A stretch of DNA of 64,000 nucleotides from Candidatus Saccharimonadota bacterium (GTDB lineage Bacteria > Patescibacteriota > Saccharimonadia > Saccharimonadales > Saccharimonadaceae), in the NCBI GenBank assembly GCA_009992235.1, contig JAACVZ010000002.1, positions 1-64,000 on the forward strand, read 5' to 3'. The notes below the pieces were generated by a model. The model had not been told where the DNA came from, searched no databases, and worked only from the letters and a program-made list of their open reading frames with translations. Shown here piece after piece: positions 17,001 through 34,352 of this stretch. The translations under genes and the position numbers were made by a program. Position 1 is the stretch's first letter; each line of letters begins with the position of its first letter.

Positions 17001-17095
17001 ATAAAAAATGCAGAAACAACCTGCATAAGAAGGATTAGGCTAAGAAAGCCCGGGAGTATTCTTTTTGCTTTTATACGAAAAATAGACACAAGCAT
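14009..17095 (-). CDS. Giant VirB6/TrbL-like type IV secretion membrane protein, 1028 aa
   Basis: The protein has an N-terminal signal/anchor (IFRIKAKRILPGFLSLILLM), a ~450-residue extracytoplasmic domain with many Cys residues, a central block of about six to seven transmembrane helices (roughly residues 490-745, including VANVGFVIAFLIVIFSQITG and RKALVVLLIVVAPIAFLAML) and a ~280-residue Gly/Arg/Lys-rich, helical cytoplasmic tail. The membrane block has the VirB6/TrbL character; such large versions are known in Saccharibacteria type IV-secretion/pilus loci. No VirB4 ATPase or other component lies in this window, so it is separated from the rest of the machine. Only 21 nt separate it from the Mur-ligase gene downstream. 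Confidence 0.75.
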   Translation of the reverse strand: MLVSIFRIKAKRILPGFLSLILLMQVVSAFFIPMSASAVTVPTDDTKELYDEVTRVTRIAALGNCMNRNEQDPGDRKITYSQAAGGEWFKSNSQIYVGYLTGKESCNGLVSAVAGYAGVSPINLMCKFNSFMHDENGAYTACAEGTPGIEAYSFWALDYAVRDGSGETPDKNRTYSVDYYEDVVLGFFKLNRDGSPSGAARYYMYLTQFLDLGTCRATQTYSNLSGWSKATLNVMGRNGLESPTTGQVTEGELEMVKRDYYFNPNTTSDLALESFIQPADRGSEKVGRYVPAYATMGLLAGGTVHRSRTVIGTEYPETKDGDTGNTLARISANTYMFGPSVAAQLGDPTPSGKSLKDFGIFGGMDLQEDTSSSKKMFMEFMDCQALANAVNDNSSSFNTWRKNKNVEAAPVAGESELDPDADASTTCNIDGVGWIVCPALNFVAEIVDTTYGAIDGLLATETELYSSEDGNATYEAWKNMRDVANVGFVIAFLIVIFSQITGLGLSNYGVKKLLPKIVIVAILINLSYFVAQIAVDLSNILGGSLKTAIEGQVTYSLGNGDSNMGSVGGITALMLGGAATAVAAGSLVYFAGIGIFIPIVLGALVAVVIVLLILVLRKALVVLLIVVAPIAFLAMLLPNTKTWYSKWQKTFVALLLVYPAIAAMFGASKLAASIVAQGPGIENAVMGVAISTLPLFLVLPMLKGSLNAIPAIGSFAQKAFNRGTGGFKSGMNERAKQGRANMGNKVRSAALGGTFGGAGRWAAGGRGRRASKSKEYAGAAARSEAGYVADKVSNNKHASIYAQADAVTTKSKLTNDELESIVTLLDAKPPETALAEAKSQLISAIQSGKPGDIVKARAANKFLSKTAFGREARDGVLAEQESYISGENYDTELSRSLRSDILSSGTKAYNNAVNTFAYGGAPDENGQPTVTSISSALERNTIKGLQDREVASQDIHVLKNAKKKGHIDAAQAQKILDNNNIDLNPEKRELFEAIAGSGANGGVEPDSINIPHGDDTTTGGPGPTFTGS

Positions 17096-17146
17096 AATGC
17101 TGTGTCTATTATTGCATATGAACTATCGATTAGAAAGATTGAGTTC

Positions 17147-17989
17147 TTATATCTTTTCCGTCGTCGTGCTAATAACTCGAACTTCTCCGTCCTCGTTAGT
17201 AAGGTGCCACGTATAATGCTCGTTCTTAAAGTACCCGGCTTCTGGATCAAGCTCATTAACATTTGACGTTGTTCTCACAATCGCTTCGATAATATAGGTC
17301 CCGTCCTCTAACACCGTAAGGGTAGCACCAGGATCAACCGACACATCGTGCTCCAAGTCGAAACTATCAGCAATAGCCTTCGTCTCGAGCGTATACCACA
17401 CATAACAGTCGGTTCCTATGGTATCAATATTTCTTGTGTCTGCAGCGGTGTCAACAGTTGATGCATAATAAGTATCGCTCAGTTTATCGACAACTTTCTG
17501 GCACTGGTCGCGTCTGAAACGGTCCATATCAGCGTTCATGTCCCCTGCGTCAAACATATCTGCGTCCCAAGTATTAGCAAGTTCTATGCCCTCAGGGTTT
17601 GCGAACAAATTCGTAATCTTCTCTTCGCGATCAATAAGTGCTTTGGCTAGCATATCAGGGTTAGGGTCTTCGCCGGATCGAATGACATATTCCTGAGGAT
17701 TTATCTGCTCAATAACGGCATCGTATGGTTTTACTTCAGGAGCTTCAGAAACTTCAGGCGATGGACTCACGGTCGAGTCAACAGACGCCTCGGTATTCAT
17801 CGGACTCGAGCCAGTGGGCTCGGCGGTATCTGTATCGCAAGCTGCAATAGCACCACTCATCGCAAGTAGACCTGCAGTACCGGCGACGAACTTCGCCTTT
17901 CTTCCGTCAAGATCAAACAGTCGCCTTGCTCTTTTCGCCGACTCGGTAACATCGCTTTCTACAGAAGTGATTTCAGGATTCTTTGCCAT
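17147..17989 (-). CDS. Putative lipoprotein, 280 aa
   Basis: A ~30-residue basic, cytoplasmic lead is followed by a hydrophobic segment ending in a lipobox (AMSGAIAAC, Cys at about residue 51). A Thr/Ser/Pro/Glu-rich linker of ~45 residues leads to a mixed alpha/beta domain (from about residue 95), ending with an NTF2/SnoaL-like run of strands (TYIIEAIVRTTS, EHYTWHLTNEDGEVRVIS). It is thus probably a surface-anchored lipoprotein. It lies upstream of, and co-directional with, the VirB6-like gene and may be a partner. The stop is TAA at 17147. Confidence 0.6.
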   Translation of the reverse strand: MAKNPEITSVESDVTESAKRARRLFDLDGRKAKFVAGTAGLLAMSGAIAACDTDTAEPTGSSPMNTEASVDSTVSPSPEVSEAPEVKPYDAVIEQINPQEYVIRSGEDPNPDMLAKALIDREEKITNLFANPEGIELANTWDADMFDAGDMNADMDRFRRDQCQKVVDKLSDTYYASTVDTAADTRNIDTIGTDCYVWYTLETKAIADSFDLEHDVSVDPGATLTVLEDGTYIIEAIVRTTSNVNELDPEAGYFKNEHYTWHLTNEDGEVRVISTTTEKI

Positions 17990-18150
17990 AATGACTATCT
18001 ATTCTCCTCGCATATACATGCAAATCGTAACCATATTGTATGTTTATTATACACCATTTTTGTTTAAATTGCAATACCCTGAGATATTACGTAGCGGTGC
18101 TACTGTTAGTTGTAGCATTTTTTAGGCATAGGCGCAATAGGACAAACCAA

Positions 18151-18177
18151 AACCCGCCCCTAATTTGGAGGCGGGTT
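18151..18177 (-). terminator. Terminator of the ABC-F gene
   Basis: AACCCGCC / GGCGGGTT stem, 11-nt loop, followed on the minus strand by TTTTGGTTTG. The ~130 bp between it and the ABC-F stop holds no convincing gene. Confidence 0.7.
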
Positions 18178-18311
18178 CTGTTGCTGTCTGCGCGCCCACC
18201 CGGGGCGCCCTTTTTGGCGTATGTTTGTGTTAATGCGCGCGTGAGATTGCCCCATGCGCATCAGCATGACCCTAGTATGCCCTGATGTGGGGAAAAACGC
18301 AAGCGCTTTCC

Positions 18312-19688
18312 TTAACGCCCAAGCTCATACCGTTGCGTCACCCCTAGCCTGCCTACGAAATACTCATCGTGGCTCACTACTACCAGCGCACCCCGGTATT
18401 CGCCCAACGCTCGCTCGATATTTTCGCGAGCACGAATATCAATGTGATTAGTTGGCTCGTCGAGGATCACTATGTCGTTTTCCACGAGGAGAAGCTTCAA
18501 AATACCCAGTTTTGTTTGCTGCCCACGCGACAATGCGTGGACGGGCTTAGTCATGTCCAACGGGGACAGATCCATAGTGGAGGCTGCTTTCAGAATCGCC
18601 GCTGCGTCACCATACTCCTCAAGGTTCTCGACACCAGACTGCCGAACGACAAGCCCAAGTACTTCTTGTGAAAGATAGCCCAGTTTGACGCCCGTTGCCA
18701 TAAACCGCTCACCGACATCGGCGTTGAGGTCACCGGTTATTATCTTAAGTAGAGTCGATTTCCCGGACCCGTTTGGACCTGCGATGTGCCACCTATCGCC
18801 AGCGAGTACTTCAAGGTTAATCCCGCTAAACAAGGGTGTATTATACGATTTCCCTACACTACTCAACCGTATCAACAACTTACGACGAGGCGCGTCAGCC
18901 GCAATATTCGCCCGATACGATTTGCGCTCAAACGGTTTATCGACCTGCTCCACCCGGTCGATCTTTGATTTCAAGGCGCTAATCTTTGTCCCGACTCGTT
19001 TTTGCCGTGCATCAGTTGCGCCCTTGTGGCCCTTCGCCCACTCCACATCAACGCCAGCATTCTTGCGAGGAGATTTCTTATGAAATGACGGCTGCATATG
19101 ATCATACGCCACCCGCAATTGACGCTGAAGGCCACGTTTTTCTTGTTGCTGCTTATCATATAGCGCCTCTTGTTGGAAATATTCCTGATTCTTTCTCTCA
19201 AGATACGCCAAGTAGTTCCCTTGAAACAAGCGCAGCGACTGGTCAGCAATCTCAGCCACGCTATCTGCGACTTCATCGATAAACGCTCGGTCGTGACTAG
19301 CGAAAAGAACGATGCCTTGAAAGTTTTTCACCACACGTACCAACCAATCTCGACTCGACTTATCGAGATTATTCGTCGGCTCATCGAGCAATAAAACGCC
19401 CGCTGTGTCTGGGCCATACAACGCCGACTCGATTTCGCGCTGAGTTATCTCACCGCCGCTCTTTGTATCGTCTCGAGTATTCTGACGAACATAGGCAACA
19501 ATACCGCCCGTCGTGACAGTTCCGTTGTCGGGCTTAATCTCGCCAGCAATCAGGCGAAGCAAGGTGGTTTTACCAACACCGTTGTCACCAACCAGCGCAA
19601 TCTTCGCGTTGTTAGGCACATTCAGCGTAACCCGATCAAAAATGATTTTTTCGTCATATACAAATGACATGTTAGAAATTGTAAGCAT
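18312..19688 (-). CDS. ABC-F family ATPase
   Basis: Two ATP-binding cassettes in one soluble chain: NBD1 with Walker A GDNGVGKTT (~residues 34-42), signature KSGGEITQRE and Walker B GVLLLDEPTNNLD; NBD2 with GPNGSGKST, signature LSRGQQTK and IVILDEPTNHID. There is no transmembrane domain. A charged linker (residues ~170-265, rich in Lys/Gln/Arg) between the cassettes is the P-site tRNA interaction motif region. ABC-F proteins bind the ribosomal E site and rescue stalled translation or protect against antibiotics. NBD1 is unusually short between Walker A and the signature, as in Msr/Vga/Lsa-type resistance members. GAGAGGTG precedes the ATG. Confidence 0.9.
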   Translation of the reverse strand: MLTISNMSFVYDEKIIFDRVTLNVPNNAKIALVGDNGVGKTTLLRLIAGEIKPDNGTVTTGGIVAYVRQNTRDDTKSGGEITQREIESALYGPDTAGVLLLDEPTNNLDKSSRDWLVRVVKNFQGIVLFASHDRAFIDEVADSVAEIADQSLRLFQGNYLAYLERKNQEYFQQEALYDKQQQEKRGLQRQLRVAYDHMQPSFHKKSPRKNAGVDVEWAKGHKGATDARQKRVGTKISALKSKIDRVEQVDKPFERKSYRANIAADAPRRKLLIRLSSVGKSYNTPLFSGINLEVLAGDRWHIAGPNGSGKSTLLKIITGDLNADVGERFMATGVKLGYLSQEVLGLVVRQSGVENLEEYGDAAAILKAASTMDLSPLDMTKPVHALSRGQQTKLGILKLLLVENDIVILDEPTNHIDIRARENIERALGEYRGALVVVSHDEYFVGRLGVTQRYELGR

Positions 19689-19761
19689 AAAACACCTCTC
19701 GTAAGGTTAGTATTCCGGGGAGATATGTTTAGTGCTACATCTTGGAAAATATTATACCATA

Positions 19762-20259
19762 TTAAGCTATGTCGTCTATTATTTTTTGGGTTATTTGTTT
19801 TTCAGACATGCTGTCTCCAAAAATATGCTCGCTCCGAATGTCGAGAGTATCATCTTCCAACCACCACTCCCGTAACTTGCTCTCATCAAAATCAGTACGC
19901 TGGTCGCGTAGTCCATGACGTCTGAGCGTTTCTTCGAATGAAAGATCGAAATAATACACAAATGATTCATCGAATTTCTCCATCAGCCCTTCAAGCAACG
20001 AACCGTACTTCTTTTTGGATAATATTCCCTCGAGCAAGACATCATATCCCAAACTTTTACCGTACATAGCGAGCTGTTCAATTAACCCAATCACAGGATT
20101 TCCTTCTCTATCTTCAACCTTTAAAATATCCCTACGAAGAACGTCCTGCTGCAACAGCATCACCTTATCTCCCATTTCAGAACGAACCCGATGAGCTATA
20201 GTTGATTTACCGCTACCAGAATTTCCGCGGATAATGATCAGTTTTGAGCTAGAGTTCAC
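19762..20259 (-). CDS. P-loop kinase, zeta-toxin/nucleotide-kinase-like, 165 aa
   Basis: The Walker A motif is IIRGNSGSGKSTIA near the N-terminus; the later YDVLLEGIL with a following lysine-rich lid region and the LSFEETLRRHGLR segment match small P-loop phosphotransferases of the zeta-toxin/chloramphenicol-phosphotransferase group, which phosphorylate a small molecule or nucleotide sugar. The substrate is not evident. The ATG overlaps the stop of the upstream gene by 4 nt, so it is the last gene of a coupled four-gene run. No antitoxin-like partner is adjacent, which argues against a plain toxin role. Confidence 0.75.
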   Translation of the reverse strand: MNSSSKLIIIRGNSGSGKSTIAHRVRSEMGDKVMLLQQDVLRRDILKVEDREGNPVIGLIEQLAMYGKSLGYDVLLEGILSKKKYGSLLEGLMEKFDESFVYYFDLSFEETLRRHGLRDQRTDFDESKLREWWLEDDTLDIRSEHIFGDSMSEKQITQKIIDDIA

Positions 20260-21335
20260 GACCGTACGCTACCTATATCTTCACGAAGCTTCGCGATAAT
20301 TTCCTCATGTCCGTGTTCATCGACATACTCCCACGCCGCAGCGTAGTCCGGATACTCCGCGACGGACTTTTTATCCAGCGCGACCAGGTCAGGCCGCTTC
20401 AAGTAATCGACATATAGCTTTTTCATAACGGCATGAACCGGAATATGCACGAGTGTATTCTTTGTTACACCATCACCGAACATACTGCGCCACAGCTTCA
20501 CGTAATCGTGTCCGTAGTCGTAAGACTTGTTGTCGGTAAGCAGCCGGTGGATTATTTCGTGAGTTAATACGTTAACGAGAACATCTTTTTCCTTAAATAC
20601 TACGCCTAGGGCCATCGGGCTGCTAAAGGCGTAGAACCACGGAGCAACATGGACATCGATAGTGTTCTGATAAAACTCGAGCCCCGTTATCTCACACAGC
20701 GCCTGCAGAATCTTTTCACCTTCTGGCTCCCACCATTCAGAATATTTTTTCGCAATATCGCAATAGTACTCATATGACCGAAGTGGCGTACCGTCACCCA
20801 GTTTCTCGTTCAAATGAACAGATGCAGCATCGGAGAGTAACCATGCGTAGTCAATTCTTACTTTAGGTAGATGCGTTTTCATCCTCAATATTTCAGCTCG
20901 TTTTTTGGGAGACTCATCCACCTCATCAATCGACCTAGCTAACTGATAAGGAATATAATTTACCGCTTCTTTTGCGAGCAAGTCGATATCTGCAACGACA
21001 ACCTTCTCTTTAAAATAACTTGACTGATCCGCGGTAATATCTATAACGGAGGCAGCCTTCAGTTTATGGTGCCAAACAACCCACACGTGCTTACCGTTTA
21101 TCAGTTCTGTGGAATCTTTATAAACCTTGCCGACCGCTAAGGAGAACTGTTCGCTCGGAAAGTTCTTTCTCAGCTCTTGCCAAAGAATAACCGAACTCGG
21201 ACCGCAGTAGCCCGCTGATTTTGGCGCATCTAATATATGTACATACTTCTCGTAAAGAAGATCAGACGACCAGTGTGGCTCAAGCTTATCGCGCAGTGTT
21301 TCGGTAAACTTTATGATGTCATCCAGAGTACTCAT
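20256..21335 (-). CDS. Fusion of Cys-His-Asp (transglutaminase/protease-like) and HEXXH metallopeptidase-like domains
   Basis: The N-terminal ~130 residues hold GYCGPSSVILWQEL (putative catalytic Cys), GKHVWVVWHH (His) and VIDITADQS (Asp), the order seen in transglutaminase-core and papain-like folds. The C-terminal part contains VNVLTHEIIHRLL (HEIIH zinc motif) about 100 residues before the end, after a helical segment. No signal peptide is visible. It lies between the GNAT gene and the P-loop kinase with 4-nt overlaps on both sides. The HEXXH half has the same general layout as the protein at 1933-2910. Both catalytic assignments are motif-based inference. Confidence 0.6.
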   Translation of the reverse strand: MSTLDDIIKFTETLRDKLEPHWSSDLLYEKYVHILDAPKSAGYCGPSSVILWQELRKNFPSEQFSLAVGKVYKDSTELINGKHVWVVWHHKLKAASVIDITADQSSYFKEKVVVADIDLLAKEAVNYIPYQLARSIDEVDESPKKRAEILRMKTHLPKVRIDYAWLLSDAASVHLNEKLGDGTPLRSYEYYCDIAKKYSEWWEPEGEKILQALCEITGLEFYQNTIDVHVAPWFYAFSSPMALGVVFKEKDVLVNVLTHEIIHRLLTDNKSYDYGHDYVKLWRSMFGDGVTKNTLVHIPVHAVMKKLYVDYLKRPDLVALDKKSVAEYPDYAAAWEYVDEHGHEEIIAKLREDIGSVRS

Positions 21336-21856
21336 AAGGCTATACTCCAGACGTTTAACGTCTTTCCGTCCTCGCCAACTTCCTGACCATCAAGCGTGTA
21401 CCCTGCCTTTTCCGCCACTTTGTTGCTCGCCATATTCTCCGGTACTGCTCGTATAATAACCTCAGGTATATGGAGCTCTCGAAGAGCGAAATCGCTTAAT
21501 GCCTTTGTCGATTGAGTAGTAATACCTTTTCCGCTGTATTCAGATGCAATCCAATATCCAATTTCAGGTCGCTTGTCGTCGTCGAGGTGCATGAGACTTA
21601 TATGGCCGGCTACTTCTCCGTTATACTTGATGCCGTAACCATACTCCTGTTTGTCTTTTCGTTTTTGCAGCATTAACTTTATGAATTCACGCGAGTCGTC
21701 GGCTGTCTTGGTATGTTTCGGCCACGGCAAAAACTCCGATAGACGCTCTCTATCTTTGTCAGTCAATTTAAACAATCGCTCAGCGTCTTCAAATTGAAGC
21801 TGCTCAAGAGACAGCGACTCATCGATTTCTATGATTTCACGACCCAGCACAGACAT
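21332..21856 (-). CDS. GNAT N-acetyltransferase (RimJ/RimL-like)
   Basis: The fold of RimL-type acetyltransferases is visible: LSLEQLQFEDAERLFKL at the start, EVAGHISLMHLDDDKRPEIGYW, the acetyl-CoA loop region IASEYSGKGITTQSTKALSDF (Q/R-x-x-G-x-G/A equivalent SGKGITT) and VPENMASNKVAEKAGY. Such enzymes acetylate protein N-termini or small amines using acetyl-CoA. Stop is TGA at 21332, overlapping the next gene by 4 nt. The substrate is unknown. Confidence 0.9.
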   Translation of the reverse strand: MSVLGREIIEIDESLSLEQLQFEDAERLFKLTDKDRERLSEFLPWPKHTKTADDSREFIKLMLQKRKDKQEYGYGIKYNGEVAGHISLMHLDDDKRPEIGYWIASEYSGKGITTQSTKALSDFALRELHIPEVIIRAVPENMASNKVAEKAGYTLDGQEVGEDGKTLNVWSIAL

Positions 21857-21868
21857 ATACCAATAATA

Positions 21869-22444
21869 TCATTTGTGCCTATGAAATACGTAGGTCGCCA
21901 GCTCATGATAGTTGCTCAGTGGCGTCGCCGTTCTTGAGACGAACGTGAAACCGAAGTTCTCTATACTCATGGTGATATCTTCATCTACGGAGATTCGTCG
22001 GGCTTTTTCTGAGGCCATAGACTTGTTGACTATGACAGGATTTATAATCACCAAGATCCCACCGATATTTAGTAGATTTTTTATTTTTTCAATAACTTCG
22101 CCTTTATTCTGAATGAAAGCAAAGACCAGCTTCATGCTAACGATGTCAAAAGTGCCTAATTCGTCTAGGTCGCTCTTCTCTATGTCTAACTGTTTAAATG
22201 TTATCTCTTTAGATGATAGTTCACGAGCCATATCTATAGCAACGTCTGATAAATCAATACCGGTGACCATAAAGCCAGCCGCATGTAACTGCCGCGCAAG
22301 TTCGCCATCACCACACCCTATGTCGAGAACTGTTTTCGCAGTACTTGGCACAACAGCAACAATGCGCGAAATGTCCTCATCACTAATCTGACGGTACTTC
22401 ACGCCTTCATTGTAACCATCGTTCCAAAATTGTTTCTTGTTCAT
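21869..22444 (-). CDS. SAM-dependent methyltransferase (class I)
   Basis: Motif I is VLDIGCGDGELARQL, motif II region VTGIDLSDVAIDMA, and motif IV-like TFDIVSMKLVFAF, all typical of small class I methyltransferases of the Methyltransf_11/25 group. I start at ATG 22444 (192 residues): a TATAAT hexamer (22452-22457) lies 7 nt upstream, whereas the frame opening at 22492 would place the promoter inside the gene. It starts a four-gene run methyltransferase-GNAT-protease-like-kinase. Substrate unknown. Confidence 0.87.
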   Translation of the reverse strand: MNKKQFWNDGYNEGVKYRQISDEDISRIVAVVPSTAKTVLDIGCGDGELARQLHAAGFMVTGIDLSDVAIDMARELSSKEITFKQLDIEKSDLDELGTFDIVSMKLVFAFIQNKGEVIEKIKNLLNIGGILVIINPVIVNKSMASEKARRISVDEDITMSIENFGFTFVSRTATPLSNYHELATYVFHRHK

Positions 22445-22635
22445 ACGAGATATTATAAGTCCTCTCATAGTAACGCTTATACGAGGACACATTTAGCCGT
22501 ATCGACCATCTTCTTTTCAATCACATCGTTAATATGGCTGTTCCTCCCCATGGATGAAATCGAAGCTATTTTTTAAAAAAACCGAGTCACAGGAAGGTTC
22601 GGCGTTACAGCAATTAACTGTAAACAATTAGCCCT

Positions 22636-23313
22636 CTAGCTCGCAAATTTGGCCAGTCTTTCGCTCCAGCTCTCAGCACCCTCTTCCCTGAAAAGTTCCG
22701 CCAAAAAATCAATCATAATTTTTTGTCTTTTTGCACCTTCTTTCTTTCCGGCTGTTGTCATTAGGATGGTGTTAACAATCAATAACTTATCAAAGAAGTG
22801 TTGCGTAGCGTGCTCATTTTTTGTGCTTATATATTGCGAGGCTGTCTTCTCTTCTGTGGCAGGTGGAGTATTTTTATCAAAAAAGTTATTTCCTTTAAAC
22901 AAATTATACGCATGTGTCCTCAGAATACCCTGTGCGCCTATTGCGTCGCACATATCTGCATCGCTCACGATCATACCCTCGATTGTAGCCGGACGCACAC
23001 CGCCCAAGTACCTTGAATAACCCATACTTTTAATTATATCGAGTACGCGTGTTTGCGTATCCGCGTCAACGGCGTTATCGTCGAGTATCTTTCGGGCGTT
23101 CAATAAACCCTCCGCGTGTGTTGCTCCAAATAGCTTATAGTCATCAACATCATGCAAAAGACTCGCAAGCTCGACAACTTCAATGTTTGCGTTCTCTTGT
23201 TCCGCAAACCGTATCGCCATGCCCCTCACTCGCTCAACATGATCATACCCATGCCCATCGTCACCTTTTAGCAGTTCTTTTACCGTGTCTTCGATCTTTT
23301 CCATGTTTATCAT
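22636..23313 (-). CDS. HD-domain phosphohydrolase, 225 aa
   Basis: The HD metal motif is visible: HGYDHVERVRGMA (first His), ELASLLHDVDDYK (H-D) and later IVSDADMCDAIGA with the fourth Asp, as in YfbR/YedJ-type HD hydrolases that dephosphorylate nucleotides or similar phosphomonoesters. ATG 23313 overlaps the upstream HAD stop as TAATG. It ends the 31.2-22.6 kb gene run; a ~190-bp stretch with no gene follows before the methyltransferase. Confidence 0.9.
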   Translation of the reverse strand: MINMEKIEDTVKELLKGDDGHGYDHVERVRGMAIRFAEQENANIEVVELASLLHDVDDYKLFGATHAEGLLNARKILDDNAVDADTQTRVLDIIKSMGYSRYLGGVRPATIEGMIVSDADMCDAIGAQGILRTHAYNLFKGNNFFDKNTPPATEEKTASQYISTKNEHATQHFFDKLLIVNTILMTTAGKKEGAKRQKIMIDFLAELFREEGAESWSERLAKFAS

Positions 23314-24023
23314 TATGACACACCCTCTTGAAGCATGTGCAATACTTCACCCCAATTCTCTACGAGCAGATGGACTCGCGCTCCCACGTCGCTACCGGCA
23401 AACACTGCGATCACGTCCGAACCTGTCGCACGAGCGGCGGTAACACCCTCCACACTATCCTCGAAAATAACTATTTCACTAGGCTTAACTTCGTATTGCG
23501 CAATAACCTTTTGAAATGTTTCGGGGTGGGGTTTTGGACGATTAACGTCATCGCTTGTGATGATTGTGTCAAAAAAGTCCAAGGGCGATAGATGTTGCGC
23601 GGTTTTTGATTCTTTAGAAGAGAAGTAGCGTATATCCCTCATCTCAGCATTTGTCGCGAGTGCAAGATGTGCATTCGTTTTATCCCTTAGCCATGTAAGC
23701 ACTTCCACGGCACCTTCCCTATACAGAATATTTTTCTGAATCTTTGGCGCCAATGAGTAAAGATTCTTCCATATTGTTTCCATTGGAGTTACACCACTGC
23801 CATACTGCTCATCTAAATAACGAAAATAGCTACTTTCGCCTCCAGGCGGTGTTGCCGCTTTCATTTTTGCTGCAAGTTTCTCAAAGTATACAACCGGCAG
23901 ATTAACACCATAAAATTTCTCCGCATACAATTTGTCCCACGCACTATACGCTTGAGTTGAGTTGACAAGTGTGCCGTCCCAATCAAAAATTATCAGTTTA
24001 TACTTATGTGGTGAAAATTTCAT
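23313..24023 (-). CDS. HAD-superfamily phosphatase/phosphoglycolate phosphatase-like
   Basis: Motif I FDWDGTLVNS, motif II ALATNAEM (Thr), and motif III/IV region KPHPETFQ...IVIFEDSVEGVTAARA are the full haloacid dehalogenase set with an inserted helical cap, typical of beta-phosphoglucomutase/phosphatase (subfamily I) members. Its start overlaps the GT8 gene by 20 nt and its stop is coupled to the HD gene. The substrate is unknown but probably a small sugar or nucleotide phosphate. Confidence 0.9.
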   Translation of the reverse strand: MKFSPHKYKLIIFDWDGTLVNSTQAYSAWDKLYAEKFYGVNLPVVYFEKLAAKMKAATPPGGESSYFRYLDEQYGSGVTPMETIWKNLYSLAPKIQKNILYREGAVEVLTWLRDKTNAHLALATNAEMRDIRYFSSKESKTAQHLSPLDFFDTIITSDDVNRPKPHPETFQKVIAQYEVKPSEIVIFEDSVEGVTAARATGSDVIAVFAGSDVGARVHLLVENWGEVLHMLQEGVS

Positions 24024-24822
24024 TTTGGTACCTTAGATACTCTTTAGAAAAAAATTCGTTCGTCTCGTCACTAATAAACTCGCTGTCCCACGGTTTGTTA
24101 CGAGTGTTAAAGTGCACAATGCACACCTCTCTGTCACTGAGCGTGCGCTCTCGCCTGTCAGAGTCCGTATAGTTATATTTTTTATGAATTCTTTTTATAT
24201 CCTCGCGAAAAGTAATATTGATAATGTCTTGGTCCTGAATCCTTACGATATTCTTTAGTTTTTTTGCATTGACTAACAGTTCCTGGGTCTTACCTAGCAT
24301 TCTAATGCGATATAAATTCATAAGCATTACACCCGAATTGATATAAGTGCTATCTTTTTCTAAGCCAATAGATTCTTTATAACCTGGGAACTGCCTGTTG
24401 ATATATGCCTTGTGCGAACCAGCAATGCAAGTATTCTGCACGTTCGTATTCCATAATTCAGACAAATCGCTGAGAATGAGCACGTCCGCGTCAAGATAAA
24501 GCGCCCTATCTAAATGACCGAAAAGATCCGCGGCAAGAAATCGCCCATAAGCAATGGGAGAGATGTGCTTGATGTGAAGCGGGAACTCCCCGAATAGCCC
24601 TTCGTCCACTACGGCAAAATCAACAGACACACCAGGAAAATCTTTCTCAAGTTGTCTAATCGTACGTTGTTCTTCGTTCGGTATGCCGCCCGTTATGATG
24701 TGAAAGAAAATCTCCTCAAATGTCGTATTATTTTTTATAATCGAATACGCCGCCACAATTAATGGATTTACGTAGAGAGCATCGATGCCAAAGACAATAT
24801 CGATTCTATCGTTCTTTTTCAT
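24004..24822 (-). CDS. Glycosyltransferase family 8
   Basis: GT8 enzymes move hexose or hexosamine from a nucleotide-sugar donor. The start DIVFGIDALYVNPLIVAAYS, the metal-binding DxD in RALYLDADVLIL, INSGVMLMNL and the later IQDQDIINITF are diagnostic. The true start is ATG 24822 (272 residues) with AAGGTG 3 nt upstream; the frame is open further but that part overlaps the HAD gene upstream. It sits between two HAD phosphatases. No transmembrane anchor is seen. Confidence 0.9.
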   Translation of the reverse strand: MKKNDRIDIVFGIDALYVNPLIVAAYSIIKNNTTFEEIFFHIITGGIPNEEQRTIRQLEKDFPGVSVDFAVVDEGLFGEFPLHIKHISPIAYGRFLAADLFGHLDRALYLDADVLILSDLSELWNTNVQNTCIAGSHKAYINRQFPGYKESIGLEKDSTYINSGVMLMNLYRIRMLGKTQELLVNAKKLKNIVRIQDQDIINITFREDIKRIHKKYNYTDSDRRERTLSDREVCIVHFNTRNKPWDSEFISDETNEFFSKEYLRYQNEIFTT

Positions 24823-25480
24823 CCACACCTTCTTTGCCTTGAGCGAGATTAAGCCTGCAAATTTTTGCAATTGCGCTATCGGTATCATCAAACAGGATTG
24901 TTCGCAGGCCCGCGCTTTGTGCCCCTCGAAGATGTTCCTCCTTGTCGTCGATAAACACAATATCTTCAGGCTTCGTCCCGAGCTTTCTCACTGCATGTTC
25001 AAATATTTCTTTATTCGGTTTTAGCATCTCCACTTCCCACGAATATAATATCGGATCAAAGCCGCCCTCTTTACTAATACCCGCTTTCGCCTGTATGTCA
25101 CTATAAATCGCGATTGTATTTGAAAGAATCGCTGTCTTTACTCCGAAAGAGCGTATTTCGCGAAGAAAATCTAAAAATTTTATGTTTGGGCGCACCTGTT
25201 TATCGTAAGCTCTCGCAAAATATGCAAAAATATCTTTTGGCGCCTTGTAGCCTAGATCTTTTTTAAGAGCAGATATGAACGCATCCTCTGAGATAAACTT
25301 TACGTCCATTGTAGTGTAGTGTGCTCGGTTAATAGCCTGAGCAAGCGACACATCTACCCCGAGTTCGTCAGCCAACAACTCCGTAAAACTCTTGTCGCCA
25401 TCTTTCAGAAGAAGCACCTCTCCAATGTCAACAAGAAGCCACTTGATTGCCGACTGACTACCATCTAGCTGCGCAGACAT
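24806..25480 (-). CDS. HAD-superfamily hydrolase, 224 aa
   Basis: Motif I is degenerate but recognisable (WLLVDIGEVLLLKDG, with Asp and Gly in place of DxDGT: D-I-G-E-V), motif II is TAILSNTIAIY, motif III MLKPNKEIFEHAVRKL and motif IV IVFIDDKEEHLRGAQSAGLRTI. This DxGxV form is the hallmark of the epoxide-hydrolase/YihX-type HAD branch. One base separates it from the upstream kinase stop. YihX-like enzymes dephosphorylate sugar phosphates such as alpha-glucose-1-phosphate. Confidence 0.85.
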   Translation of the reverse strand: MSAQLDGSQSAIKWLLVDIGEVLLLKDGDKSFTELLADELGVDVSLAQAINRAHYTTMDVKFISEDAFISALKKDLGYKAPKDIFAYFARAYDKQVRPNIKFLDFLREIRSFGVKTAILSNTIAIYSDIQAKAGISKEGGFDPILYSWEVEMLKPNKEIFEHAVRKLGTKPEDIVFIDDKEEHLRGAQSAGLRTILFDDTDSAIAKICRLNLAQGKEGVDEKER

Positions 25481-25481
25481 A

Positions 25482-26117
25482 TCAATTTTCTCCTTCTCTT
25501 AATCTATCCACTACTCGCGTAAAATCAACGAGCACTTCACCTGGCGGTCTGTCCGCATATATTGGTACCGTCGAGAGACCCGCGCGTCTATAGCAATCGA
25601 GTCGTATTGCATGCCTCCCCATGAGACCGTGATACCTCTCCTCGTACCCCAAGCGCTCTTTCGAAGAAGTAGCTGTTGCAACATCCATACCTCTATCTGC
25701 GTCTCGCTGCTGCATTCTTGCAACGCTCGTTTCTAGGCCGACATTGAGAACGACCGACCCAAGAGGACGTATGCCTTCGTTCGCAATGTTGCGATTGAAT
25801 ATTCTCCAATCACCATAGTCATGTGGAAAGCCGGTAACCATTACCATGTTTGCATGCTCAGCTGCATACCTGATCCGTTCACGCACGATGAGGCTATAGG
25901 AAGCATTCGGCAAGAGCGTCCCCTTTCTTGCTGCTTCCTGCAGGATATCGGCATACTCTGACTCAATATCTCCATCACGTATCCCCGACACAAGCTCTCC
26001 GGTCCCAAAATGATCCGTATACGGATGCTCAGCTCGATACCCCTCTACAACTGTTGTTTTTCCTGCGCCTGGTGGTCCCGTAACAAACACAACATCAATT
26101 TCGCTACGTCCAACCAT
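25482..26117 (-). CDS. Adenylate-kinase-like P-loop NMP kinase (paralogue 1)
   Basis: Walker A GPPGAGKTT and HFGTGELVSGIRDG (equivalent of the AMP-binding segment of adenylate kinase), then VTGFPHDYGDW (in place of DGFPR) and RYHGLMGRHAIRLDCYRRAG (arginines of the C-terminal lid/binding region). The stop is TGA. It shares order and motifs with the gene at 27263-27943 (IRxGxxES, GFPH, Rx-x-x-Y), so the two are diverged paralogues flanking a Nudix-nucleotidyltransferase gene. The canonical LID with DGR..HP is missing, so the acceptor is probably not AMP. Confidence 0.75.
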   Translation of the reverse strand: MVGRSEIDVVFVTGPPGAGKTTVVEGYRAEHPYTDHFGTGELVSGIRDGDIESEYADILQEAARKGTLLPNASYSLIVRERIRYAAEHANMVMVTGFPHDYGDWRIFNRNIANEGIRPLGSVVLNVGLETSVARMQQRDADRGMDVATATSSKERLGYEERYHGLMGRHAIRLDCYRRAGLSTVPIYADRPPGEVLVDFTRVVDRLREGEN

Positions 26118-26136
26118 GACAAATCCTTTCGTTAGT

Positions 26137-27258
26137 TTAAATTTTCTTGCGCTTCTTTGGTGAAACTTGAATACGCTTATCTGCTAACTTTTGAGCGTAC
26201 GGCATATATTCTTCTGGCTTCAGGATACCGTCCTCAACAACGCGTAAATAGATGTCGACCGAACTTCCGCCCTTAAGATACAGGCCGGCCGCTGTTACGG
26301 CTTTCTTGATGTCCACTACCGCATCTTTTTGCTGGTCTGTCATCTGTTCAATCTTTCTTAAGACATCTTGATTAAATGGCGATGCGTTATTACTTTTGTC
26401 AGTTTCATCAAACAAACAAATATCGAAATTCCATAAGCGACCCGCTTTGTTGAACATCTTCAACATTACGAGAATGCATTTGAGGTTTCGCCCATTTTGA
26501 ATATCAGCATTAAATGAGATGAGGTCTCTCGTTTTAATTTCATATACATTGTTAAGGTTGAGCAAATCGCTCATAATACCTTTTTGTGCAACTTTGAGCT
26601 CATCTGGCGCAAGCCACACCTCAGTGTCGATATCGCGATCATACATCGTCCCCCACTCATAACCACCCACAAAACTAGTACGACCGTATTTTTCAAGTAT
26701 AGGGCGCACGATTTCAACCATCCTATCAGCTTCAGCCTTTAGATCTTGCTGGCTTTCTTCACTTGGCGTAAACTTCTCTGATACAAGCTCATAAATGCGC
26801 TCGCCGATTGGATTTTTCCATCCAAGCGCCTCAAGTATTTCGTCAACATCTACAAATTTTGCAGGAACGAGGCTCCCGTCGATATCGATCGTCTCTGACT
26901 GAATGTCCGCTACCTTTGCATACACACGGAGCTGGTTTGCCACCTTGCCTTTAGAGTCGGTACGAATCTGATAACCAATCGGCTCCCATTCAATTACAAT
27001 GCCTCCCGTCTCTTCCGCCAGCTCTCGCCTCAGTGTCGCTTCAATATCTTCGCCCTCTTCAACATGGCCACCGGGGAGGTGATGCATACCAAGCTTATCT
27101 AAATACACCAACACAACCTTGCCGCTATAGTTTGCAATAATATGCACTTGCTTCCATTTAATGTCTGGAACCCTTTTACCTATAAGATCCCGCCACTCGA
27201 TAGTAATTTTTTCACCATCTAGGTTTGACTGTGTATTAAGAATAATATTAGACGACAT
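26137..27258 (-). CDS. Nudix hydrolase fused to a nucleotidyltransferase-like domain, 373 aa
   Basis: Residues ~30-160 are a Nudix domain with box GGHVEEGEDIEATLRRELAEETGG (E-E motif intact). From about residue 185 a second domain begins with RTSFVGGYEWGTMYDRDIDTEVW: G-G-x-x-x-G then D-I-D, which resembles the minimal nucleotidyltransferase (pol beta superfamily) motif. The C-terminal ~160 residues are unassigned and the protein ends in a lysine-rich tail. A fusion of pyrophosphohydrolase and nucleotidyltransferase suggests activation and proofreading of the same small nucleotide metabolite. It sits between two paralogous kinases. Confidence 0.75.
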   Translation of the reverse strand: MSSNIILNTQSNLDGEKITIEWRDLIGKRVPDIKWKQVHIIANYSGKVVLVYLDKLGMHHLPGGHVEEGEDIEATLRRELAEETGGIVIEWEPIGYQIRTDSKGKVANQLRVYAKVADIQSETIDIDGSLVPAKFVDVDEILEALGWKNPIGERIYELVSEKFTPSEESQQDLKAEADRMVEIVRPILEKYGRTSFVGGYEWGTMYDRDIDTEVWLAPDELKVAQKGIMSDLLNLNNVYEIKTRDLISFNADIQNGRNLKCILVMLKMFNKAGRLWNFDICLFDETDKSNNASPFNQDVLRKIEQMTDQQKDAVVDIKKAVTAAGLYLKGGSSVDIYLRVVEDGILKPEEYMPYAQKLADKRIQVSPKKRKKI

Positions 27259-27262
27259 TGAT

Positions 27263-27943
27263 TTATACCTCTCTTACGTTATTAGCTTTCAGGCTAGTAA
27301 TGCCCTGTGTGAATTGGCTCAGCACAATCTGCCTACCTTCTTGGTCTAATATATCTAGATTTGCGTCAATTGACTCGAGTTGCACCCCTCGCGTCATAAG
27401 TATATCAAGAAGTGCACCCTTCGCCTCAAGATACGCACTATACCTACCTGCATAGTATTCTTTTTCGTCTTCGGTTGCCGAGAAGACAGCATTTTTACGT
27501 ACATCCTCACCTCCTCTCATGCCACGATATGACATTCGCGCAACGCAAGTGTCGAAAGTTGCCCCAAGGCATACAGCACCTAAAATTCTTCGTCCTGACT
27601 CACGCAATCTCTCTTGTACGTAATCAAAATCGCCCGAATTATGAGGGAACCCATCAACGAGCGATAAATCAGTAGATTCAGGGGCGCGACTGATCTCTTC
27701 TAACACAATATCTCCGAAGACTTCATCTGGAAGATACTGCCTAGATACTAAACATTCTAGTACCGTTGTGGAATAGGCTGATTCAACTTCACCGGCACGG
27801 ATACTACGGACCTGCTGCCCAGCTGAAATGTGCTGAGTCGTAGGATTCTCGCATATGTAGTGGCTCGACAGGAGCCCTTTCCCTGAACCAGGAGGGCCAT
27901 CTATAATGATAACGTCCGCCAGCCTTTCTGAAGAATTAGACAT
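27263..27943 (-). CDS. Adenylate-kinase-like P-loop NMP kinase (paralogue 2)
   Basis: Walker A GPPGSGKGLLSS, HISAGQQVRSIRAGEVES, LVDGFPHNSGD and a C-terminal region with RYSAYLEAKGALLDIL then VQLESIDAN, which is the order of the adenylate-kinase C-terminal half. ATG 27943 is preferred to the frame opening at 27985, because the latter overlaps the upstream gene heavily; with 27943 the overlap is 8 nt. It is a diverged paralogue of the gene at 25482-26117. Confidence 0.75.
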   Translation of the reverse strand: MSNSSERLADVIIIDGPPGSGKGLLSSHYICENPTTQHISAGQQVRSIRAGEVESAYSTTVLECLVSRQYLPDEVFGDIVLEEISRAPESTDLSLVDGFPHNSGDFDYVQERLRESGRRILGAVCLGATFDTCVARMSYRGMRGGEDVRKNAVFSATEDEKEYYAGRYSAYLEAKGALLDILMTRGVQLESIDANLDILDQEGRQIVLSQFTQGITSLKANNVREV

Positions 27944-29483
27944 AGTAATTATCCCTGATGTATTCATCCATATATCTACTGTCATTTATAATTTCAAATT
28001 TTTCATAATTCAACGAGCTAAACCCAAGTCGATGGTCATCCGTCGATAGCAGTTTGTCGAGAAGTGCGATAAACTCATCATCGTTTCCCCGTAAGCGCGC
28101 ATCCGCAAGCACCTTTTCTTTTCGATTCGGTCCCGGATAAAGTATTAAATACGGAACATCTTTCTTATCTAATTCACTCAAAATGTCCTTCCCGCCGGTT
28201 AGGAAAATGACTTTATACTTTCCTAGATTATCTATCACAGACTGCACATAATTCATAGGATACGCAGGGTTCTTTTTCCAATTAGTCTGCCCTTTAGCTA
28301 CTTCGTCATCCAAATCCCGATCTTCATAAATACGCGCGTGGTGAATTGACTCTATGTCTAAGGCCAATTTTGGGTACTGTTTTGCGAATGTCGTCTTTCC
28401 AAGGCAAGCAAAGGACGCAATAAGTAACGACTCTCCGTCATTAATCTTTTTCTTTACGTTGCCGTTTTGGTCATACACAAGAAAAGTGTAGTCCTGAATA
28501 TTTAATCGAGATAAAGCTTCTTCGGGATCATTTTCACTAAACGCATAGAGCGATGGGCCTAGTGAGCTTACTGCAGAAAATGCAAACTCATTCCTTAGCT
28601 CCTTTAGTACATTTTTCGTGCGATCCGATTGCACATTTTCCTCAAGAGGCTTCGATCCAAGCGTAATATTCTCGTTTAATGCAGCCACAAACGCGTCAAA
28701 ATTTTCTTCAACAATGCCCGGAATAATTGACTCTAACACATTGTAAACAATGCGGTACGAATCCTCGTTTCTGTCTGGGAGCGATGCGGACCAGAAATCT
28801 AATTCGTACTTACCGCTAATTGAAGTGCCCGTTTTTGGAATAGCCACGATAGTGTAAAACGGAAAGTTTCTTATCTTAATAACCGTATTCGCAACTGTCT
28901 CATATTCTTGACTAAGAGATGGGTTCACAAGGGTTCCATCATTTGCGTTTGAAAGCTTACACCCCATTTCAATAATCATTCCTGGATTAAAGATGAGGTT
29001 GAGGCCAAGCGCGGAATAATGGCCAATACCCATCTTGAAAAGGTCATTAATCTTCAATTCTACACCTGAGACCTTCGCGCTGCAGAGATACACCCCACCT
29101 AAAACCTGCGTTGATATGCCAAGCCCTGTATGTTCACGAATTGACCGATTGATATGAACTGTTACTTCATAAAAATCATCTGATTTTATATAGTTTCTAA
29201 GCGCATCAAAATCAATCTTAAAATCGAGATTCGTAAGCCTTATATTGCCCTTAACCCTAACTGAGTCTCTAGGATCTCTACTCTTACTTACGTGAATTTT
29301 AATAGGCATATTAAGCAACGAACGCCCAAGGCTTCCATGCTTTAAAATGCCAGATATAAGAGACAGGTCAAGCGTGAACATATGGAGCCTTGGATAGACC
29401 GCGAGCCCCACCGCGCCGTCCGATATCTTGTAGCTCGGGTTCATATCTCTAGTGTTAATAATTTCCATTGCAGGTTGCATCAT
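27936..29483 (-). CDS. GHMP-kinase-like (beta-RFAP-synthase-like) domain fused to a P-loop kinase-like domain, 515 aa
   Basis: Residues ~1-300 resemble beta-ribofuranosylaminobenzene 5'-phosphate synthase, a GHMP-fold enzyme: HTGLGISTQVLGG (the GLGSGTQ-type loop) and, about 40 residues later, KMGIGHYSALGLNLIF. The C-terminal part (~360-515) carries SFACLGKTTFAKQYP (P-loop lacking the usual first Gly), ALDIES, YKVIFLTGGKDIL and YLILYPG-NRKEKVL, resembling phage-type nucleotide kinases of the GFPGxGKT class. No nearby gene supplies tetrahydromethanopterin steps, so it may use a related phosphoribosyl chemistry. A fused kinase partner is unusual. Confidence 0.6.
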   Translation of the reverse strand: MMQPAMEIINTRDMNPSYKISDGAVGLAVYPRLHMFTLDLSLISGILKHGSLGRSLLNMPIKIHVSKSRDPRDSVRVKGNIRLTNLDFKIDFDALRNYIKSDDFYEVTVHINRSIREHTGLGISTQVLGGVYLCSAKVSGVELKINDLFKMGIGHYSALGLNLIFNPGMIIEMGCKLSNANDGTLVNPSLSQEYETVANTVIKIRNFPFYTIVAIPKTGTSISGKYELDFWSASLPDRNEDSYRIVYNVLESIIPGIVEENFDAFVAALNENITLGSKPLEENVQSDRTKNVLKELRNEFAFSAVSSLGPSLYAFSENDPEEALSRLNIQDYTFLVYDQNGNVKKKINDGESLLIASFACLGKTTFAKQYPKLALDIESIHHARIYEDRDLDDEVAKGQTNWKKNPAYPMNYVQSVIDNLGKYKVIFLTGGKDILSELDKKDVPYLILYPGPNRKEKVLADARLRGNDDEFIALLDKLLSTDDHRLGFSSLNYEKFEIINDSRYMDEYIRDNYYV

Positions 29484-29490
29484 ATTTCTC

Positions 29491-30162
29491 CTAAGTGTGT
29501 ACTGTTCCGCCGGTCATATTGATAGTGGAGTTCGTAATAAACTCATTTTGCACCGCAAAAAGTATCGCATCAGCCATGTCGTCGGACGTACCTAGCCGAC
29601 CAATATAATTACTACTCGCAACCGCCTCTTTTTTGTCTTCGCCCCAATCTGCAATCATTGCGCTTTCAAATGCACTTGGAAGGATTAGATTTATCCTTAC
29701 CTTACCACGAAAATCTCTTGCAATGGTGTGCAATATACCACCAAGTGCAGCCTTTGTGGTTGCATATGGCATTTTCGCACCCAAATGTGCGGCAGCGCTA
29801 CCAACAAGCGTAATCGAACTATTGAGCAAGGGAAGGTGCGCAACATAGCGTGAAAATTCCTCAGATAGTTTCGCGGGTAGATATTCGTTCACAAGATAGC
29901 TTTCACGCCAGTCGTGTGACGAGATACCAGCAACGATAACTAAACTTGCTGATTCAAGATTCTTTGTTGCCTGCATGTCATCTGTAATAGCAGTTAGCAG
30001 GAAATCTACTGACAACTCGTCATCCATACCCTTAAAATTAATAAATTGCTTAAGATTATGTGGGTTTGATCGCCCTATAAACACACACGAGTAGCCATTG
30101 ACCAGACGCGCAAGCGCTTCCGAGATATTGCTAGAACTTCCGATTACATAGATTTTTTTCAT
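29491..30162 (-). CDS. Short-chain dehydrogenase/reductase, 223 aa
   Basis: A Rossmann N-terminus (YVIGSSSNISEALARLV), the NAD(P) contact region SLVIVAGISS in place of NNAG, Ser in SITLVGSAAAHLG and the YATTK (YxxxK) pair at about residues 140-150 make a full SDR active site. The C-terminus ends INMTGGTVHT, usual for the family. It directly follows the Gfo/Idh/MocA gene with 2 bp between, implying joint oxidoreduction of a sugar- or polyol-like substrate. Confidence 0.9.
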   Translation of the reverse strand: MKKIYVIGSSSNISEALARLVNGYSCVFIGRSNPHNLKQFINFKGMDDELSVDFLLTAITDDMQATKNLESASLVIVAGISSHDWRESYLVNEYLPAKLSEEFSRYVAHLPLLNSSITLVGSAAAHLGAKMPYATTKAALGGILHTIARDFRGKVRINLILPSAFESAMIADWGEDKKEAVASSNYIGRLGTSDDMADAILFAVQNEFITNSTINMTGGTVHT

Positions 30163-30164
30163 TA

Positions 30165-31232
30165 TTACCTCAGATTCATCACTTTTCCGCTAGCATGACT
30201 CTTATATATAGCATCGATTGTGCGCATGTTACTCAATTGATCAATAAAATTCTGATCTTTTGTATCAAGTCCCTTGTCTTGCATGCACGCATCGATAAAT
30301 TGATCCAGTTGTTCATCAACCTCATGTTGCTTCGAGTTAAATGAGTGTGATTCAACCTCGTTTGAGTCTTTGTCGTAAAGGCATACCGTCCTTCCATCTA
30401 CTAACACGGAGCCCTCAGAACCGTAAATCCTTATCGACTCGCTCTTCCGATTTGATATCTTTGTAACCGTAACGTTTGCGTTAATCTTCCCATCCGCATA
30501 AGTCATCATCGCCTTCATGGTATCATCAATTGAATAATCACCCCCCAGGCTGTTGTAGCTCAGCTGAGCATAGACCTTATCTGGCGCGCCGAAAACGTAA
30601 GTCAGCAGGTCAATACTATGATAGCCCATATCCAACGCCGCACCACCGCCAGAAACGAGCCTATTCGCGCGCCAGCCACTAGCCATATCATGAGCATTAA
30701 GATTGAGGCTGTATTCTACACTCACCGAGTGTACATTACCGATAGACTCGAGCAGCTTCTTTGTTGTTTCGTAGAGCCTTGAGAAGCGACGCTGTACACA
30801 CACCTGCAAGTAAGTATCGTGTATTTTATAAAGGCTTATAATTTCACTCGCCTCTGCATAGGTAACAGCAAAAGGCTTTTCCTTAAGTGTTGCAATCCTA
30901 TTCGAGGCAAGTATCTCTAGAATTTCAAAATACTGATCGTGTGGCACAGACACAATCGCCAAATCTGGTCTTGTGTCACGAACTGCATCACGTACTTTCT
31001 GAAATGACTTCGTGCCGATCACTTCATTGCATTCACTTAGTACCCTATCGTTATTATCGACAAGTGCAACAATCTCTAGGTCTTTTCGACGAAGAATCGC
31101 AGGTATATGATCTTTTTGAGATTGCACCCCAAGACCAATTACTATAACTCTTAAGACCTTGTCGTGTTTAGCTAGTTTACGGGCATGGCGTGGCGCCGTT
31201 TTAGTAATTGAACTAGGTACGGACTTGCTCAT
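30165..31232 (-). CDS. Gfo/Idh/MocA family oxidoreductase, 355 aa
   Basis: The N-terminal NAD(P)-binding fold is VIVIGLGVQSQKDHIPAIL; the family Lys is in EILEILASNRIATLKEKPFA (EKPF); the C-terminal domain has the typical GGAALDMGYHSIDLLTYVFG (H-S-D helix) and YGSEGSVLVDG. Such enzymes oxidise or reduce hydroxyls of sugars, inositols or biliverdin-like compounds with NAD(P). It appears to be the first gene of the 31.2-22.6 kb run and may therefore head the proposed pathway. The N-terminal ~20 basic residues (ITKTAPRHARKLAKHDK) may be an extension or a later start. Confidence 0.9.
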   Translation of the reverse strand: MSKSVPSSITKTAPRHARKLAKHDKVLRVIVIGLGVQSQKDHIPAILRRKDLEIVALVDNNDRVLSECNEVIGTKSFQKVRDAVRDTRPDLAIVSVPHDQYFEILEILASNRIATLKEKPFAVTYAEASEIISLYKIHDTYLQVCVQRRFSRLYETTKKLLESIGNVHSVSVEYSLNLNAHDMASGWRANRLVSGGGAALDMGYHSIDLLTYVFGAPDKVYAQLSYNSLGGDYSIDDTMKAMMTYADGKINANVTVTKISNRKSESIRIYGSEGSVLVDGRTVCLYDKDSNEVESHSFNSKQHEVDEQLDQFIDACMQDKGLDTKDQNFIDQLSNMRTIDAIYKSHASGKVMNLR

Positions 31233-31317
31233 ATCAGTAACGCTCCTGCCTTTCGACGATTTTATATCGCTATGATAACATAATTGCTACTATTTTGCAA
31301 CAAGCTATTCCCGTCGA

Positions 31318-34352
<3,035 letters not shown>

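Follow-up and report, generated by a model that had tools for sequence, protein, structure and literature searches.

Within the window, the whole stretch of 64,000 nucleotides analysed here from a tiny bacterium of parasitic type (Saccharibacteria), a single open reading frame joins an RFAP-synthase (RFAPS)/ForT-like domain of the GHMP fold to a phage-type P-loop kinase. The fusion protein is real, unusual and coherent, and it is of the RFAPS/ForT kind, not a methanopterin enzyme. We put at about even the chance that it is a ribotide synthase and kinase in one, producing a nucleotide, probably C-linked, and then phosphorylating it. The gene begins with ATG, has AGGAG upstream, and is organized as follows.

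27936..29483, minus strand: probably bifunctional protein of 515 aa, with an RFAP-synthase/ForT-like domain followed by a P-loop kinase of phage type (ORF, family matches, AlphaFold model)
28461..29417, minus strand: N-terminal RFAPS/ForT-like GHMP-fold domain, residues 23-341 (profile, alignment, tree, structure matches)
27939..28436, minus strand: C-terminal P-loop kinase domain, residues 350-515 (phrog_4182, IMG/VR relatives, model)

Both halves foreseen in the original prediction, an RFAP-synthase-like GHMP domain and a phage-type P-loop kinase in one ORF, were borne out by profiles, and the full-length AlphaFold model has a pLDDT of 88 and a pTM of 0.85. The same fusion recurs in two further MAGs of the same genus, L016 and L017, which are near-identical to each other. 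Because it recurs there with 64% identity across both domains, an assembly artefact is unlikely. Purifying selection acts on both domains (dN 0.30 and dS saturated between the window fusion and the L016/L017 type). The original prediction was also right that the fusion is unusual. It is confined to a single genus, and in other loci the kinase is a separate downstream gene. Homologues keep the fusion in L016/L017, but not in L018 (a MAG titled Alphaproteobacteria UBA3650), L008 (identical to L019, from roe deer gut) or L020 (titled Nomurabacteria, its genome being placed in the same family as the window).

The N-terminal domain belongs to the β-RFAP synthase/ForT superfamily. An NCBIfam search with the fusion protein matched NF040726 (E 7.7e-28) and TIGR00144 (E 1.4e-23) over residues 31-325, and Pfam gave weak GHMP N and C domains only. 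The protein does not score as another GHMP family: no mevalonate, galacto- or homoserine kinase model of NCBIfam reached E<=0.1, so an identity as one of the other GHMP kinases is unsupported. Among solved structures, the formycin C-nucleoside synthase ForT (PDB 6YQQ/8AP0) is the nearest characterised relative by sequence and fold. It was the sole real PDB match by sequence (phmmer, E 2e-14; profile search, E 1e-15) and the best fold match of the full-length model (Foldseek 1.3e-14; VIA Z 23.1, 300 residues, rmsd 4.0), with the next GHMP proteins at VIA Z 19.7 and below. Its domain extent also matches that of the window domain.

In ForT, PRPP is held by Arg19, His99 and its turn, Thr106, Arg135, Ser139 and Ser142, of which Arg135 contacts the 5'-phosphate; Glu211 is the essential catalytic residue, and Lys263 and Gln266 are at the acid (PMC8183095, PMC9832568). 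In the alignment, R32, H118, T125, S157, E227 and K278 of the window protein correspond to ForT R19, H99, T106, S139, E211 and K263, and I153, G160 and E281 stand at the positions of R135, S142 and Q266. The counterparts of R19, H99, T106, E211 and K263 are kept in all five family members, E227 and K278 being invariant. The His99-GxGxxT pyrophosphate loop is present as H118-T-G-L-G-I-S-T125, and the two motifs singled out by the original prediction, GLGISTQ (residues 120-126) and GIGHYSALG (residues 152-160), are indeed there as the RFAPS phosphate loop and second loop. However, the counterpart of Arg135 is absent, with I/V at its place in all five members, and the clade has I/L at the Ser104 position. 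The window family further differs from ForT in having H for S21 and E for Q266, and all five members carry a clade-specific basic residue, K/R217. The change of Ser142 to Gly is not telling, because H4MPT enzymes likewise carry Gly there. The pyrophosphate loop and catalysis are thus kept, with the 5'-phosphate arginine replaced.

PRPP supply bears on the same point. The host genome (691 kb, 96.7% complete) has no PRPP synthetase above the curated cut-off of 113 bits (best match, 23 bits), an absence that is not proof in an incomplete draft, and by the same cut-off the enzyme is also missing from 15 of 16 congeners. Together with the loss of Arg135, this suggests either scavenged PRPP or a different donor. 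One congener, L099, has a full PRPP synthetase over the cut-off (G474:C65:8256-9203), by horizontal gain or contamination, and the other 16 genomes of the genus are without it.

As for the C-terminal domain, residues 353-477 match phrog_4182 (E 2e-12), a phage family of unknown function; the domain also matches phage hypothetical proteins (tblastn), and its profile recovered 31 IMG/VR loci. An alignment with 19 viral relatives showed the GK[ST], D-x-[DE]-S, NPxxPxNY and RG motifs to be common to both sides, the phrog_4182 P-loop kinases included. The Walker A motif of the window protein reads S357-FACL-GKT, and NPxxPxNY lies at 405-412. The P-loop had been described as degenerate; its first Gly is in fact Ser, but the degeneracy is mild (S357-x4-G362-K363-T364), and GK[ST] is kept family-wide. 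Unlike the window kinase, most of the phage proteins seen stand alone. Modelled by itself, the domain adopts an NMP-kinase/PNK-like fold (pLDDT 90), and within the full-length model it matches phage nucleotide/guanylate-kinase-like proteins of a viral structure library. Guanylate kinase, polynucleotide kinase, gluconate kinase and adenylate kinase resemble it about equally (Z 8-9), which is too even for the acceptor to be named, and searching PDB sequences with a profile of the kinase yielded chance matches only.

The RFAPS family is rare. It was found in one of 197 genomes of the order (single-sequence search) and in six of 394 genomes of the family Saccharimonadaceae, one of the six being a remnant; a phylum-wide profile search of a sample of 380 gave no member besides the host genome itself. 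A contig search with a single sequence returned no match, and a two-sequence profile recovered the relatives. Two scans of IMG/VR gave no RFAPS relative in viruses, and none of the papers searched connects RFAPS with Saccharibacteria. Each of the five intact loci has the kinase, either fused to RFAPS or encoded within ~1 kb downstream of it. The kinase family occurs in only eight of 275 genomes of the family Saccharimonadaceae, of which five carry RFAPS or its remnant, and loci L113-L115 have it without RFAPS. The L008 kinase is instead joined to NUDIX, with an intervening GT2 gene, whereas L112 has a degraded RFAPS end followed by a GT2-kinase fusion and then NUDIX. Near recR, the kinase-NUDIX fusion of L114 (5152-6601, without RFAPS) and the GT2-kinase fusion of L112 (6539-8462, with the RFAPS remnant) are modules shuffled between loci. 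Another divergent GHMP/RFAPS-like protein of a Saccharibacterium (L009:681-2685) adjoins a P-loop kinase and a MazG-type pyrophosphohydrolase.

Maximum-likelihood analysis of 15 sequences, none of them from methanogens, gave four separate clades, with no supported order among them. Besides the H4MPT-linked clade (99/99), the window family (100/99) comprises other Saccharibacteria and one alphaproteobacterial MAG, ForT groups with a Mesorhizobium pur-linked protein (98/99), and the Rhizobium/Cupriavidus proteins form a clade of their own (100/98).

In the window, the fusion gene is part of a run of genes transcribed in the order MocA, SDR, fusion, adenylate-kinase-like, NUDIX plus extension, second adenylate-kinase-like, HAD, glycosyltransferase, HAD and HD.

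30165..31232, minus strand: Gfo/Idh/MocA oxidoreductase; the L016 cluster has a homologue at 62% identity (Pfam, synteny)
29491..30162, minus strand: SDR oxidoreductase, upstream in the same gene run; 61% identical homologue directly upstream of the L016 fusion (Pfam adh_short_C2, synteny)
27263..27943, minus strand: adenylate-kinase-like P-loop protein; homologues in the L016, L018 and L020 clusters (Pfam ADK)
26137..27258, minus strand: NUDIX hydrolase; NUDIX conserved in the L018 and L008 clusters (Pfam NUDIX)
25482..26117, minus strand: second adenylate-kinase-like P-loop protein (Pfam ADK, alignment)
24806..25480, minus strand: HAD-family hydrolase (Pfam)
24004..24960, minus strand: glycosyltransferase family 8 (Pfam)
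23313..24023, minus strand: HAD-family hydrolase; a 48% homologue lies directly downstream in L016, and a 28% one in the L018 cluster (Pfam, synteny)
22636..23313, minus strand: HD-domain phosphohydrolase; a 58% homologue ends the L016 cluster (Pfam, synteny)
19500..31250, no strand: segment of low GC (0.42-0.455) within an insertion of ~17 kb (synteny, composition)

The first listed start of the adenylate-kinase-like gene is 27985; read from the ATG at 27943, it shares 8 nt with the end of the fusion gene. The C-terminal extension of the NUDIX protein looks nucleotidyltransferase-like by eye. L016 shares the MocA, SDR, fusion, HAD and HD genes at 48-64%, and the adenylate-kinase-like and NUDIX genes divergently, while L018 shares RFAPS, kinase, adenylate-kinase-like, NUDIX and HAD genes. 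P-loop NMP-kinase-like and NUDIX genes, often with HAD, recur beside the RFAPS family. It differs from ForT in that it comes with a P-loop kinase, fused or linked, and in that its cluster has no pur-type genes.

The cassette lies on an island and is, in our reading, a mobile accessory module. The Mur ligase gene (12695-13987) and ligA (31318-33360) that flank the insertion are ~17 kb apart here and 1.9-3.4 kb apart in three congeners, and GC is 0.42-0.455 at 19.5-31 kb versus about 0.46-0.50 over most of the remaining window. The island DNA has no near match in plasmids. Between the same flanks, the stretch 14009-19688 encodes a 1028-aa membrane protein resembling VirB6 by eye, a lipoprotein-like product and an ABC-F-like ATPase (18312-19688). 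L097:5808-10491 is a related island that lacks RFAPS; it contains a serine recombinase, adenylate-kinase-like, NUDIX and nucleotidyltransferase-like genes and a further gene. At the end of the UBA3650 cluster, L018:8720-9688 encodes a 322-aa protein with no Pfam, NCBIfam or PDB sequence match, whose HAGN and KMGKS motifs by eye suggest a class I aminoacyl-tRNA synthetase-like protein.

According to the ribotide synthase-kinase reading, the N-terminal domain would couple an acid, aromatic or heteroaromatic, with a (5-phospho)ribosyl donor to give a ribotide, with Glu227 acting as the counterpart of the essential Glu211 of ForT and a C-C glycosidic bond probably being formed. Residues and fold support this first step; the identity of the acid, the type of bond and the coupling to the kinase are what we infer beyond it. 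The phage-type kinase domain would phosphorylate the product, the neighbouring adenylate-kinase-like proteins may take it towards the di- or triphosphate, the NUDIX, HAD and HD hydrolases may trim or detoxify it, and the SDR, MocA-type and glycosyltransferase genes may tailor it; substrate, order of steps, product and purpose are all meant in this conditional sense. The likeness to ForT, the residues kept in five members, and the recurrence of adenylate-kinase-like P-loop proteins and NUDIX speak for this reading, as does a kinase family tied to five intact RFAPS genes and one degraded one, yet present in so few genomes; the Rhizobium/Cupriavidus clade shows a similar pairing, and the island location and the mobile or defence genes near the L016 and L018 clusters fit as well. 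Against it stand the clade-wide changes at Arg135 and Ser104, the lack of a PRPP synthetase over the cut-off, and a cluster in which no aromatic-acid pathway genes were identified. In L114 the kinase-NUDIX part exists without RFAPS, so the RFAPS product is not necessarily what the kinase acts on.

The same changes in the phosphate pocket, together with the K/R217 of the clade, speak for a changed donor. The RFAPS fold would then use, in place of PRPP, another ribosyl or sugar (di)phosphate to which a parasite lacking PRPP synthetase has access. It would serve a glycoside or sugar-nucleotide pathway, with the SDR, MocA oxidoreductase, GT8/GT2 and nucleotidyltransferase-like domain, rather than make a nucleotide. 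We consider this rather unlikely but the best placed of the alternatives, as it would also fit the lack of a Prs over cut-off, the glycosyltransferases in the window, L008 and L112 loci, and the SDR and MocA genes of the window and L016. However, R32, H118, T125, S157, E227 and K278 match PRPP and catalytic residues of ForT, and the genes with which the family is repeatedly paired, for NMP-kinase-like proteins and NTP hydrolases, point to nucleotides.

Two further proposals, both improbable in our judgment, concern what a nucleotide product might be for, and these possible defence or antibiotic roles rest on neighbourhood. In an anti-phage module, a nucleotide analogue would poison phage polymerases. 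Prokaryotic viperins, which are radical-SAM enzymes, share with it the proposed production of a modified nucleotide beside nucleotide kinases; the analogy is one of logic only, without homology, as the window protein would be a GHMP-fold ribosyltransferase unrelated to them by descent. A CBASS cyclase (PADLOC E 1.5e-94) and a 2TM effector (L018:2829-4877) lie directly upstream of the UBA3650 cluster, and an integrase-like gene and a HigBA-like pair are close by. The L016 cluster has, a few kb away, a type II restriction-modification pair and a serine recombinase, and the distribution is patchy (6/394 genomes). Yet PADLOC gave no convincing match to the cluster genes, no defence genes were recognised beside the window copy, and island neighbours prove little. 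The likeness to ForT could fit a secreted C-nucleoside-like toxin or antibiotic against the host or competitor bacteria, in keeping with the tailoring-type genes (MocA, SDR, GT, methyltransferase, GNAT, HAD) and the ABC-F-like gene of the same insertion, but no precursor ring pathway was identified, and the ABC-F and methyltransferase genes are not common to the other loci.

The original prediction likened the motifs to the methanopterin-pathway β-RFAP synthase, but a genuine enzyme of this pathway, acquired from archaea or methylotrophs, is effectively ruled out: the best NCBIfam matches bear that name, but the scores fall below both curated cut-offs (TIGR00144, 83.6 versus 113.5 bits; NF040726, 97.5 versus 328 bits), the protein lies outside the H4MPT-linked clade (99/99) in the tree without methanogens, and the pathway marker Mch has no match in the host genome. 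The four relatives score 74.8-110.6 bits on the β-RFAP synthase models. The resemblance is at the family level, comprising the RLHxF..D start motif, the HxGxG loop and an invariant D39 as the counterpart of methanogen Asp19. Arg26, which the methanogen enzyme needs for pABA binding (PMC6787355), is replaced in the five members by L/I/M, as judged from the alignment with ForT, whose R33 is given as its equivalent, and no pathway context accompanies the protein.

As to the ribotide synthase-kinase reading, only a small number of enzymes produce carbon-linked nucleotides, and these enzymes are important to antiviral chemistry. Here a distinct clade with a changed phosphate pocket is physically joined to the kinase that would activate its product, in a group of organisms thought to have almost no biosynthesis. 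More speculatively, and with considerable doubt, one may envisage a new, mobile modified-nucleotide system of ultra-reduced Saccharibacteria in which a fused C-ribotide synthase and phage-derived kinase, using a non-PRPP donor or scavenged PRPP, would provide a nucleotide analogue for conflict with phages or the host bacterium. Our observations suggest that, outside methanopterin, homologues of RFAPS are repeatedly accompanied on mobile DNA by nucleotide kinases and NTP pyrophosphatases.

The plasmid RFAPS proteins of Rhizobium and Cupriavidus (WP_166478860 type) have the same K278/E281 pattern and likewise have P-loop kinase and NTP pyrophosphatase partners, in the form of a Ham1-P-loop fusion, beside a D12 methylase; unlike the window protein they retain R135. 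The tree gives no supported joining of the two clades, and no relatives of the Rhizobium protein were found among phages. The conserved cassette of these plasmids (L021:5167-10397, L056:7195-11592, L057:6954-11644), with a D12 adenine methylase, a membrane protein that is PLD-like by eye, the RFAPS-family protein and the Ham1 pyrophosphatase-P-loop kinase fusion, looks like an undescribed conflict or nucleotide-modification system. In the Mesorhizobium plasmid locus L058:8986-14865, the RFAPS protein that groups with ForT lies near 8-oxo-dGTP diphosphatase, SAICAR synthase and purH genes, and this locus is possibly a formycin-like C-nucleoside cluster in a rhizobium.
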